From the IMG/VR virus record IMGVR_UViG_3300034957_000044, positions 1-36,451 of that record: DNA of 36,451 bases. The stretch is one strand, 5' to 3'. Position numbers and translations under genes: made by a program. The DNA comes from a virus. Below are positions 2,822-34,875 of the stretch, in pieces (positions within the stretch are counted from its first letter, which is position 1; the number at the start of each line of letters is the position of its first letter). The notes beneath the pieces are model-generated. The model made no database searches. It worked only from the letters and a program-made list of their open reading frames with translations, and was not told the DNA's origin.

Positions 2822-4318
2822 ATGCTGGAGTTCCTGCGGCAGCAGCTCGCGAAGCTGCTCGAACGGCGGGCCGCGCTGCGGTCCGACCTGGACAAGGTGA
2901 TCGCCGAGGCACGCTCGGCGAAACGTGACCTGACCGACGACGAGAAGACCCGGTTCACGGCCGGCACCGAGGAGCTGCGCAAGCTCAACGGCGACGAGGA
3001 CGACCTCAAGCGTCAGATCGCCGATGCCGAGGAGACCGAGCGGCGCGAGCAGGCAGCCGCGTCGGGCCGGGCCGAGACCGGGCAGACCGGGCAGCAGCGC
3101 ACCGGCGGCGCGACCATCACCAGCGAGCCGCAGGTGTACGGGCGCGGTTCCGGCCGGTCCTACTTCCACGATCTCGCCCTCGGGCAGCTGCGCCACGACC
3201 CGGCCGCCCTCGGCCGGCTGGATCGCCACGCGGCCGAGCTGCGCGTCGAGCTGCCCGCCCGGGAGGCGCGCCGCGAGGCGCGGTCCCGCGAGCAGATGGA
3301 TGACCTCGGGTCGTCCGAGCGGTGGCGTGACGAGCAGCGGGCGGCCGCGTTCGAAACCCGCGTCAACCCGAACCGCACCGACGGGCAGGGCGGCTACTTC
3401 GTGCCGCCGCTGTGGCTGATCGACCAGTTCGTCGGGCTGCCCCGGTTCGGGCGGCCGTTCGCCGACAGCGTGCGCGGCATGGAACTGCCGGCCGGCACCG
3501 ACTCGATCAACCTGCCGAAGGTGGCGACCGGCACGGCGACGGGCGCGCAGACCGCCGACGGTGCTGCGGTCACCTCGACGGACCTGACCGACACCAGCGT
3601 CTCCGCGTCGGTGTACACGGTGGCCGGTCAGCAGGACGTGGCGATGCAGCTGCTCGACCAGTCGCCCGCGCCGGGCTTCGACCAGATCATCTTCTCGGAT
3701 CTGCTCGCCGACCTGGCGCTGCGGCAGGACGTGTATGCGCTGAACGGTTCCGGGTCGTCCGGGCAGCCGACCGGCGCCCTCAACGTCTCCTCACCGAACT
3801 CGGTCACGTACACCGATGCGTCGCCGACGCTGCCGGAGATGTACGTGCCGTGGGTCCAGTCCGTGAGCCAGATCTTCTCCAACCGGAAGATGCCGGCGAC
3901 CGCGACGTTCGTGATCCCGGCGATCTGGTACTGGGCATGCGCGAACCTCGACACGACGGGCCGCCCGCTCATCCAGCCGGTGCAGGGTGCCCCGTTCAAC
4001 CCGATGGCGCTGCAGACGGGTGAGATCGCCGAGGGCCCGGTCGGGAACCTGACCGTCGGTACGCCGGTGATCCTCGACGGGAACATCCCGACGAACCTCG
4101 GTGGCGGCACGAACGAGACGCGGATCCTCACCGCCCGCACCTCCGACCTGTACCTGTGGGAAGGGCCGATCCAGAGTCGCGTCCTGACCGAGGTGCTGTC
4201 CGGGACGCTGCAGATCCGGTTCCAGACCTTCCGATACGCGGCGTTCATGGCCAACCGGCTCCCGAAGGCGATCAGCATCGTCTCGGGCACCGGCATGATC
4301 CCGACGTCCGGCTACTGA
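2822..4318 (+). CDS. Major capsid protein, HK97 fold with N-terminal delta domain
   Basis: 498 aa from the ATG at 2822. An in-frame GTG at 2810 lies inside the ribosome site and is less likely. Residues about 1-85 are a charged coiled-coil delta domain (LERRAALRSDLDKVIAEA, then EELRKLNGDEDDLKRQI) expected to act as internal scaffold and be cleaved. A linker rich in Gly and Thr follows (85-115), and an Arg/Glu-rich helical stretch (130-180) before the HK97 core beginning near GGYFVPPLWL (about 193). The core shows the GMELPAGTDSINLPKV N-arm and the usual C-terminal FRYAAFMANRLPKAISIVSGTGM. Its position after the protease confirms the call. Confidence 0.95.
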   Translation: MLEFLRQQLAKLLERRAALRSDLDKVIAEARSAKRDLTDDEKTRFTAGTEELRKLNGDEDDLKRQIADAEETERREQAAASGRAETGQTGQQRTGGATITSEPQVYGRGSGRSYFHDLALGQLRHDPAALGRLDRHAAELRVELPAREARREARSREQMDDLGSSERWRDEQRAAAFETRVNPNRTDGQGGYFVPPLWLIDQFVGLPRFGRPFADSVRGMELPAGTDSINLPKVATGTATGAQTADGAAVTSTDLTDTSVSASVYTVAGQQDVAMQLLDQSPAPGFDQIIFSDLLADLALRQDVYALNGSGSSGQPTGALNVSSPNSVTYTDASPTLPEMYVPWVQSVSQIFSNRKMPATATFVIPAIWYWACANLDTTGRPLIQPVQGAPFNPMALQTGEIAEGPVGNLTVGTPVILDGNIPTNLGGGTNETRILTARTSDLYLWEGPIQSRVLTEVLSGTLQIRFQTFRYAAFMANRLPKAISIVSGTGMIPTSGY

Positions 4319-32564: not shown

Positions 32565-33155
32565 ATGGCCAAGCTCACCAAGCGGCTCCGCTTCGAGATC
32601 CTCCGCCGAGACCAGTTCCGCTGCCGCTACTGCGGCGCGACGCCGGCCGAGACTGCGCTGCGCGTCGATCACGTCGTTCCAGAGGTTCTCGGCGGCGTCA
32701 CCGAGCCCGCGAACCTGGCCACCAGCTGCGAACCCTGCAACAACGGCAAGGGCTCGACCAAGCTGGACGACCCGGTCGTCGACGACGTCGCCCGGGACGC
32801 ACTCCGCTGGGCCAAGGCCATGGAGATCGCTGCCGCCGGCCAGCGAACCACTCGTGCAGAAAGGGATCAGAATCGCGCGAGTTTCATCGACGCATGGCAA
32901 TGCTTCTGGTACGAATGGCGCGGCGAAAAAAACTACATGCCACTGCCGGACGACTGGCCGCAAAGCATTGACGCCTTCATTCGCGCGGGGCTCAACGACG
33001 ATGATTTGTACGACGCCGTCAATATCGCGATGAGCAAAAAGCACATCAAGATGGAAGCGCTGTTCAAGTACTTTGCCGGGGTCTGCTGGCGCATGATCGA
33101 AGAACGTCGCGAGACGGCCGCCACCCTCGTACACCTCGTCGACGAAGGGCTCTGA
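32565..33155 (+). CDS. HNH endonuclease
   Basis: 196 aa with AAAGGA at 32551-32556. HNH signature with zinc cysteines: C20/C23 in FRCRYCG, D35-H36 in RVDHVVP, N50 in EPANL, C55/C58 in SCEPCNNGKG. The C-terminal half (about 90-190) is helical with WQCFWYEWRGEKNYMPLPDDWPQSIDAF. The DNA from about 32860 to 33060 is markedly less GC-rich than the genes around it, pointing to recent acquisition. It could be a homing-type endonuclease or a replication/recombination nuclease. Confidence 0.85.
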   Translation: MAKLTKRLRFEILRRDQFRCRYCGATPAETALRVDHVVPEVLGGVTEPANLATSCEPCNNGKGSTKLDDPVVDDVARDALRWAKAMEIAAAGQRTTRAERDQNRASFIDAWQCFWYEWRGEKNYMPLPDDWPQSIDAFIRAGLNDDDLYDAVNIAMSKKHIKMEALFKYFAGVCWRMIEERRETAATLVHLVDEGL

Positions 33156-33157
33156 CC

Positions 33158-34162
33158 ATGGCCCGCAGCGAAGCCCGCATCTCGGTATCGATCTGGGACG
33201 ACGCCGACTTCCTAGTGCTGTCCAGCGATGCCCAGCGCCTATTCCTGTTCCTGTGCTCACAGAGCGACCTGGCCCACGACGGCGTCATCGCGCTGCGCGA
33301 ACGCCGCTGGTCGAAGAAGGCGGCCGGCCTCACCCTCGCCGCGATCACCCGCGCGCTCACCGAGCTGGAGAGCGCGCGCTTCGTCGTCATCGACGAGGAC
33401 GCAGAGGAACTACTCGTGCGGTCCTTCATCCGCCGCGACAAGGTCTACCGGCAGCCGAACGTCCTACGCGCTGCAGCGGACCATCTGAAGAGCATCACGA
33501 GCCACCGGATCCTCACCGAGCTGGCCGTCGAACTCGAGCGGATCGCGGCCGGCGCCGACGTTCCATCGGCCTGCGGCGGCATCCTCGCGGAGATGCGCAG
33601 CACGGTCGGGAAGGGTACGCCGAACCCTTCCGGGAACCCTTCGCCCGGCACTCCCGGGGATGGCGAGGGTTCCGGGAACCCATCCGGGATCCCTACGCCC
33701 AACCCTTCCGGCCGGACCGGGAATCCTGCGGATGACAACGTTTCCGCAGGTGTTGAGGGTTCCGGAAACCCTTCCCGGAAGGGTATCGGGAACCCTACGC
33801 CCGGCACCCTCGGGGAAAGGGGAATGGTTACGGCCGTAAGTAGTGCTTCCCCTTCCCCCGTACCTCGAGCCTCGGGTCCCCGCCCCCGACCTTCGGCCGG
33901 GGGCCGCGCGAGCGCGCGCGAAGCCGAGCCCACCACCGCGCCGCCGGCACCCCCCTCCGACCGATGCCCGAAACACCTCGACGACCCCGACCCGCCCAAC
34001 TGCGGCCGCTGCGCCGGCGCCCGCAAAGCCCGAGCCCGCTGGGAAGTCGCGAACGCCGAACGCCGACGCACCTCGCCGCAATGCCGCACCCACCGGGGCC
34101 AGCCCGCTCACAACTGCGCGCTCTGCCGCGCCGACCAACTCGCCGCCGAGGAGACACCTTGA
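33158..34162 (+). CDS. Replication initiator-like protein with winged-helix N-terminus
   Basis: 334 aa. N-terminal ~125 residues are a replisome-organiser-like winged-helix domain: ISVSIWDDADFLVLSSDAQRLFLFLCSQSDLAHDG, then LAAITRALTELESARFVVID and RRDKVYRQPNVLRAAADH. A low-complexity Gly/Pro/Ser/Asn linker (about 150-235) is encoded by clustered palindromes (see 33615-33805). The C-terminus has two zinc-knuckle-like repeats, CPKH...CGRC (about 270-285) and CRTH...CALC (about 309-323). Function by analogy with lambda O-type initiators. No helicase, primase or polymerase gene was recognised nearby. Confidence 0.75.
   Translation: MARSEARISVSIWDDADFLVLSSDAQRLFLFLCSQSDLAHDGVIALRERRWSKKAAGLTLAAITRALTELESARFVVIDEDAEELLVRSFIRRDKVYRQPNVLRAAADHLKSITSHRILTELAVELERIAAGADVPSACGGILAEMRSTVGKGTPNPSGNPSPGTPGDGEGSGNPSGIPTPNPSGRTGNPADDNVSAGVEGSGNPSRKGIGNPTPGTLGERGMVTAVSSASPSPVPRASGPRPRPSAGGRASAREAEPTTAPPAPPSDRCPKHLDDPDPPNCGRCAGARKARARWEVANAERRRTSPQCRTHRGQPAHNCALCRADQLAAEETP
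33615..33805. repeat. Iteron-like palindrome cluster inside initiator gene (candidate origin)
   Basis: Repeated cores AACCCTTCC (33623-33631, 33711-33719), AACCCTTCG (33635-33643), perfect 7-1-7 palindrome GGGTTCCGGGAACCC (33667-33681), near-palindrome GGGTTCCGGAAACCC (33757-33771) and perfect 8-1-8 palindrome ACCCTTCCCGGAAGGGT (33768-33784). CCCTACGCCC occurs twice. These lie in the linker-coding part of the initiator gene, as origin iterons lie within lambda-type O genes. Confidence 0.65.
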
Positions 34163-34329: not shown

Positions 34330-34568
34330 AACTCGACGACGTCCACACCATGCTCGCCGCCAGCATCAACGTCGATGCGCTCAAGGCCAACCTGCCCAGC
34401 CCCGCCGAGTTCGAGCGCATCCTCCGCGAGCGATACGCGCCGCTGCTCTCCGCCGAGGACTACGCCCGCCTCCGCACGATGTGCGGCCTCGGCCAGATCC
34501 TCGACGGCGAGGTGGTCACACCCCGACCCGCGCTGGCGCAGCAGACCGACGATGCACCGCACACCTGA
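34326..34568 (+). CDS. Hypothetical helical protein
   Basis: 80 aa from the ATG at 34326. LDDVHTMLAASINVDALKANLPSPAEFERILRERYAPLLSAEDYARLRTMCGLGQIL resembles small head-proximal proteins of actinophages. The 3' end overlaps the HNH gene by 17 bases. Upstream open frame is not coding. Unknown role. Confidence 0.6.
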   Translation: MKLDDVHTMLAASINVDALKANLPSPAEFERILRERYAPLLSAEDYARLRTMCGLGQILDGEVVTPRPALAQQTDDAPHT

Positions 34569-34875
34569 CCCCGCCAACATCGGCCGCCGCGGCACCCGCT
34601 GGCGCAACGCCAAAGCCGCCGCGTTCCAACTGTGGGGCACCGACTGCTGGTGGTGCCACCACCCCGGCGGCTACGAAGGCGACCACCTCATCAGGCTCGC
34701 CGACGGCGGCGACCCCTACGACCCCAACAACATCCGGCCGGCCCACGGCAGCAACTACCCCTGCCCCGTCTGCATCAGCCCGTCGACGGGCAAGCCACGC
34801 TGCTGCAACCAGGAACGCAACCGCAGGTCAAAGCCAACACGAACCACGATCATGATCGACCCAATTACGATCTGA
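34552..34875 (+). CDS. HNH endonuclease adjacent to terminase
   Basis: 107 aa from the ATG at 34552. Zinc cysteines C32/C35 (DCWWC) and C71/C74 (CPVC), and HNH core D44-H45 in EGDHLIRLADGG, N60 and H65 in NNIRPAHG. HNH proteins next to terminase genes are known to be part of the packaging machinery of many cos-type phages, where they help cut cos. Position directly before terS and an AT-richer repeat region at 34874-34946 supports this. Confidence 0.85.
   Translation: MHRTPDPANIGRRGTRWRNAKAAAFQLWGTDCWWCHHPGGYEGDHLIRLADGGDPYDPNNIRPAHGSNYPCPVCISPSTGKPRCCNQERNRRSKPTRTTIMIDPITI

Follow-up and report, generated by a model that had tools for sequence, protein, structure and literature searches.

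The replication initiator gene and its product

The window (the whole stretch of viral DNA that was analysed, 36,451 nucleotides, IMG/VR record IMGVR_UViG_3300034957_000044) comes from a temperate phage of a high-GC bacterium and contains a portal gene, an integrase gene, a repressor-like gene, and genes for RecE, an Erf-like annealing protein and RuvC. The integrase matches phrog_95 and a DNA invertase, and is probably a serine integrase because of the latter match. A replication initiator of 334 aa is encoded at positions 33158–34162. Directly upstream of it lies an HNH endonuclease gene (32565–33155), and downstream (34375–34875) another gene encodes a protein whose PHROG matches of HNH type are weaker. 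HNH genes are also found next to the initiator in several relatives.

The initiator matches phrog_3171, ‘replication initiation protein’, over residues 1–330 (E 2.2e-59), and phrog_8064 (E 3e-36). No Pfam family was found in it at E <= 1; neither the RepA_N domain nor the phage replication protein O family was matched by the window protein or by 16 aligned N-domains, and the Pfam scans gave no match to the DnaG-primase-binding C-terminal domain. The protein consists of a winged-helix N-domain (about residues 1–149), an iteron-encoding linker (about 150–230) and a Cys-rich C-terminal part with CPKHLDDPDPPNCGRC at residue 270. The AlphaFold2 model of residues 1–149, for which the input alignment consisted of the window and IMG/VR loci only, has a pLDDT of 94.4. 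Its top VIA-align rows are 4pql, 4pt7 and 5kbj (Z 6.6–6.9 over 85 residues), whose titles refer to a DNA-binding protein N-domain, an initiator and a Rep-DNA complex, and which we take to be staphylococcal RepA N-domains. This structural likeness to initiator/Rep proteins is only suggestive, since unrelated winged helices score around 6 (as the CRP-type rows do), and values of Z below 8 may mirror merely a common winged-helix arrangement. With the same model, Foldseek found nothing in the PDB at E <= 0.001, while the viral models returned were family members and ‘Replisome organizer’ proteins. A sequence search of the PDB with the initiator gave nothing better than E 0.1.

An array of 11-bp sites in the linker-coding region

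The initial annotation had pointed to at least six iteron-like copies in the linker-coding region and to two perfect palindromes of 15 and 17 bp. Both palindromes are present, and the number of copies turned out to be an undercount: about 12 copies of an 11-bp directional word, GGAACCCTTCC, are found in both orientations at 33609–33811. The sites detected with at most 3 mismatches make up the start (cluster 1), the middle (cluster 2 and a lone copy) and the end (cluster 3) of the array, and weaker sites of the same type are also found at 33801 and 33821 (minus strand). The features of the region are as follows (R, minus-strand site; F, plus-strand site).

33158–34162, plus strand: replication initiator gene, 334 aa (phrog_3171 and phrog_8064 matches, AlphaFold2, translation)
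33609–33655: iteron cluster 1, with R 33609, F 33621, F 33633 and weak F 33645 (site scan; weak site from sequence)
33663–33709: iteron cluster 2, with R 33663, F 33675, F 33687 and F 33699 (site scan; 15-bp palindrome 33667–33681 at its start)
33720–33730, plus strand: degenerate lone iteron GGAATCCTGCG (site scan)
33725–33750: inverted repeat CCTGCGGA-10-TCCGCAGG, between clusters 2 and 3 (sequence; pairs in predicted fold; GC profile)
33753–33811: iteron cluster 3, with R 33753, F 33765, R 33777, F 33789 and weak F 33801 (site scan; weak site from sequence; includes 17-bp palindrome 33768–33784)
33812–33824, plus strand: purine tract GGGGAAAGGGGAA (sequence; counterpart of the 6-bp-period tract of relatives)
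33827–33841: GTTACGGCCGTAAGT box (identical in locus L022; related boxes in other relatives)
33846–33859, plus strand: pyrimidine tract CTTCCCCTTCCCCC (sequence; compare the tracts in relatives)

Neighbouring sites are mostly exactly 12 bp apart and in a single codon phase, and each of the three clusters (starting at 33609, 33663 and 33753) has a minus-strand copy in first place and a plus-strand copy in second. The 15-bp palindrome, GGGTTCC-G-GGAACCC, is the divergent abutment of two GGAACCCTTCC sites, and the 17-bp palindrome, ACCCTTCC-C-GGAAGGGT, is the convergent abutment of two such sites. All three exact copies of AACCCTTCC in the 36 kb of the window are inside the array, as are 8 of the 9 copies with at most 1 mismatch.

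The iteron array exceeds codon-preserving nulls. When codons were redrawn from the phage's own usage, neither the core count nor the number of 7-mers shared with the reverse complement was reached (0/1000 for each). Permuting synonymous codons within the linker only is a harsher null, because the odd codon choice of this region is retained; here 1/1000 permutations matched the reverse-complement sharing and 13/1000 the core count. Scored over the whole gene, the repeats reach 129, while the maximum under the null averages 52 (0/400).

These values bear on the possibility that the DNA pattern is a by-product, either of selection for a repeated Gly/Asn/Pro/Ser linker peptide or of repeat slippage. 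The strong forward copies in the window do share one codon phase and spell GNPS-like peptides, as a peptide repeat would, but the excess of reverse-complement copies over the synonymous nulls does not fit such an origin. The relatives of the gene carry this comparison further.

Conservation of the DNA word among relatives

A tblastn search located the protein in 332 annotated phage records, from phages of Gordonia, Mycobacterium, Arthrobacter, Rhodococcus, Microbacterium, Thermobifida and Corynebacterium. In Gordonia, Mycobacterium and Arthrobacter phages it is annotated as ‘RepA-like replication initiator’, and it is the same family as phrog_3171 / phrog_8064. No direct DNA relatives of the window were found in the phage collection. 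The annotated phages and 80 IMG/VR loci were reduced to 67 non-redundant genes with N-domains less than about 90% identical. Among these 67 relatives, several alternative C-terminal parts (Cys-rich or of other types) stand behind the one N-domain, as would be seen if C-termini were exchanged at the origin-coding linker.

The closest kin (L020–L022) are 60–64% identical to the window in the N-domain alignment and have linkers of other lengths and peptide sequences. If up to 2 mismatches are allowed, a threshold at which chance matches are included, they have 12 (L020), 5 (L021) and 6 (L022) candidate sites, mostly in the linker. The 67 genes contain 69 exact copies of ACCCTTCC, where synonymous permutation leads one to expect 10.5. 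In the origin segments it was found 72 times in 33 kb (2.18/kb), and in the flanks 7 times in 397 kb (0.018/kb), which makes it about 120 times denser in the former. Ten exact cores are present in Thermobifida phage P1312, and the M. smegmatis phage Jeon, whose predicted origin lies in gene 56, has three tandem sites at 11–12 bp steps.

Across the 67 genes, ACCCTTCC is read in all six combinations of strand and phase, and the peptides obtained are unrelated: NPS or DPS (37), TLPE/D (10), EPF (7), EGF/EGS (9), KG (3) and GRVR (3). The site spacings peak at 11–12 bp, a step which is close to the helical repeat of B-DNA. Spacings between similar 9-mers, counted without reference to a motif, point to the same grid, with 660 pairs at 12 bp (null 235) and 125 at 11 bp (null 12), together with 433 at 6 bp (null 117). 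An 11-bp period, which many arrays have, shifts the codon frame from each copy to the next, and one array accordingly reads NPxGTLPEP.

In a set which is skewed to well-sampled phages, at most 40 of the 67 relatives have three or more sites of the GGAACCCTTCC-type word at 2 mismatches, some of these sites being scattered. The remaining 27 or so have fewer than three sites of the window word, and some of them clearly have a different word, as in L023 and L104, while in others no word was recognised. In L023, which is 52% identical to the window in the N-domain alignment, another repeat word, GACCCTGCGCGC, occupies the same place (3450–3535), which makes this locus a candidate for a linked change of recognition helix and iteron. 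Plasmid homologues of the initiator number two only. The one inspected in full, from plasmid phiM2 of Streptomonospora litoralis (L100:2995–3633), has its winged-helix domain directly fused to an HNH endonuclease, without linker or array.

Split genes in Arthrobacter phages

In the Arthrobacter phages Mufasa8 (L014) and Vibaki (L105) and in the related contigs L088, L090 and L098, the reading frame closes at the place expected for the start of the linker, and the window-type word is found in non-coding DNA directly after the stop codon. In Mufasa8, where the predicted origin comes directly after gene 49, it recurs at 12-bp steps in two blocks, followed by a ACTCCTTA repeat. The arrangement is also split in BarretLemon (L104), with another repeat word. 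Beyond the array, L088, L090, L098 and L014 have an ORF that shares homology with the C-terminus encoded by L085, a fused gene (33% identity, E 2e-11; hhalign probability 97%). A tree of 72 N-domains places the seven rows with a non-coding origin and five fused genes in one strongly supported group of 12; three changes between coding and non-coding origins are needed on this tree, which is poorly resolved. The hypothetical protein annotated as gene 50 of Mufasa8 (L014:2944–3252) corresponds to the non-coding array read as an ORF, and is probably not a real gene.

Since the same word is read in any of six frames, or lies in no gene, what is conserved is DNA and not protein; for this the sequences provide strong evidence. 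The initial annotation had taken the low complexity of the linker for a by-product of constraint on the DNA, which is supported by one word giving different peptides in six phases, and had suggested comparing the conservation of repeats and protein in relatives. That comparison comes out strongly for the repeats, by the six phases, the 11-bp period and the non-coding copies in most of the split-gene Arthrobacter phages. Plain NPS or TPS repeats do occur in several relatives and would agree with selection on the peptide, but unrelated peptides from one word, arrays that change frame at every copy and an array outside any gene would not. A selected peptide repeat or slippage is therefore a very improbable explanation, and a peptide repeat as the main cause is ruled out by phase, period and non-coding copies.

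Elements beside the array

In the relatives, a tract of purine or pyrimidine hexamers with a 6-bp period usually adjoins the array, and in a subset of them a box of the GTTACG..CGTAAGT type is found next to it. The box shared by the window and L022 is GTTACGGCCGTAAGT; L010 has CTTACGTTGGTAAGT, and L009, L018, L082 and L101 have TTACGTAAGT. The box patterns were found 0 times in about 400–410 kb of flanking DNA. In 19 of 28 relatives, the 36 bp with the lowest GC fall between −20 and +150 nt from the end of the array, and along the linker third-position GC drops from roughly 0.88 to 0.60. In the window, the low-GC element is modest, with a 40-bp GC of 0.55–0.57 compared with a mean of 0.70 and with lower spots elsewhere in the window. 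The lowest 40-bp GC within the array (0.55) is at 33725–33750. A single-strand-type origin was considered because of the hairpin at this position, but the inverted repeat is given no role beyond that of a spacer.

The inverted copies could also act in the transcript, as an RNA structure controlling gene expression. The predicted fold of the segment has an energy of −122.8 kcal/mol, compared with −110.7 kcal/mol for dinucleotide shuffles (z −2.4), which is just modestly unusual and is what a series of inverted repeats would give in any case. The copies are for the most part direct and spaced on the 11–12-bp grid, and arrays mainly of one orientation exist (L066, L070, L073), neither of which agrees with a function in RNA, so we regard this explanation as highly unlikely.

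Another possibility is that the repeats are sites for the initiator or a phage regulator which serve gene regulation or partition rather than forming the origin itself. Arrays of short sites also form operators and parS loci, and the position of the array is compatible with autoregulation of the initiator. The parS loci of RedRock, for instance, contain eight direct 8-bp repeats each (PMC7157519). Against these functions, every relative that has an array has its sites downstream of the start, either in the initiator gene or immediately behind it, and a low-GC tract often adjoins them. Partition is further disfavoured in that no ParA or ParB was found among the annotated neighbours or the scanned window ORFs. 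Regulation or partition thus seems unlikely as the function of the repeats, if less so than a role in RNA.

The probable origin and a proposed mechanism

Based on these comparisons, segment 33607–33860 is very probably the replication origin of this temperate phage, located inside the gene for its own initiator. The initial annotation had proposed origin iterons at such a place, and the conservation of the repeats as DNA across relatives supports this. The GC-skew check suggested there gave a cumulative minimum near 35 kb, which is uninformative since the genes in that part run one way.

We infer the following course of initiator binding, DNA opening and recruitment. The winged-helix N-domain would bind the sites, probably first at the divergent R–F pairs which open each cluster, and the initiator would then occupy the neighbouring sites. 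The filled array would melt the adjacent purine/pyrimidine tract and GTTACG..CGTAAGT box; an alternative opening point in the window is possibly the 33725–33750 spacer. The C-terminal part would recruit the host replication machinery, its likely role being to contact a helicase, a loader or a primase, as neither a phage helicase nor a phage polymerase turned up among the window ORFs scanned. The linker peptide would act as a flexible tether, its sequence dictated by the iterons.

Comparison with known origins

The initial annotation had cited lambda gene O as precedent. The design is indeed similar, although the pSK41 RepA_N origin is functionally as near. The lambda ori lies in gene O, so that in both cases the iterons are inside the initiator gene, and it has an adjacent easily melted stretch (PMC6022878), while the low-GC stretch is weak in the window. 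The four lambda iterons each contain an 18-bp inverted repeat and are accompanied by an AT-rich stretch of 39 bp, whereas here directional 11-bp sites in both orientations are found on an 11–12-bp grid beside a GC-rich hexamer tract. The proteins are not linked to lambda O by any Pfam match.

In the pSK41 replicon of Staphylococcus, ori is central in rep and is bound by the N-domain, and proteins without the linker still act in trans (PMC5703833). As here, the boxes are in the linker-coding centre of the initiator gene, between a DNA-binding N-domain and a C-domain which recruits host proteins (PMC5703833), box binding being presumed in the present case. The best VIA-align rows of our N-domain model, which are initiator/Rep structures, may reflect a further likeness. 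The differences are that pSK41 has four Rep boxes and not about twelve 11-bp sites, that the present family has no RepA_N Pfam match, and that it is found in phages of high-GC actinobacterial hosts, with several alternative C-terminal parts and with relatives split around a non-coding origin. The element thus appears to work like the pSK41 and lambda origins, yet belongs to neither by sequence.

No published origin for the phrog_3171 / phrog_8064 family was found in the open-access literature searched. For other mycobacteriophages, Wetzel et al. state that the RepA origins are presumably ‘within or immediately adjacent to repA’ (PMC7157519). The extrachromosomal mycobacteriophages Miko and Jeeves are therein similar, having a phage initiator and an origin thought to be in or beside repA, but an iteron array is not described for them in the passages covered (PMC7157519).

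Taken together, it is more plausible than otherwise that these sequences form one replicator family across phages of many actinobacterial genera, marked by iterons on an 11–12-bp grid, by a purine/pyrimidine tract of 6-bp period and, in a subset of members, by a GTTACG..CGTAAGT box. The word would be kept while its coding is optional: in Arthrobacter phages it lies outside coding sequence, between two genes, and elsewhere it is read through as a domain-joining linker in whatever frame the repeat phase allows. The array allows the origin to be predicted from sequence in most of the 332 annotated records that have this initiator, among them phages of the laboratory strains M. smegmatis mc2 155, Gordonia terrae and Arthrobacter, for which no origin description was found. 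It also represents a natural experiment on overlapping constraint, in which one DNA word passes through six frames and loss of coding while the protein bends, and the differing words in close homologues such as L023 make a co-change of recognition helix and iteron testable. A near-identical contig, IMGVR_UViG_3300035084_000014 (L002:1–428), stops within the iteron array, as if the assembly had broken at the repeats.
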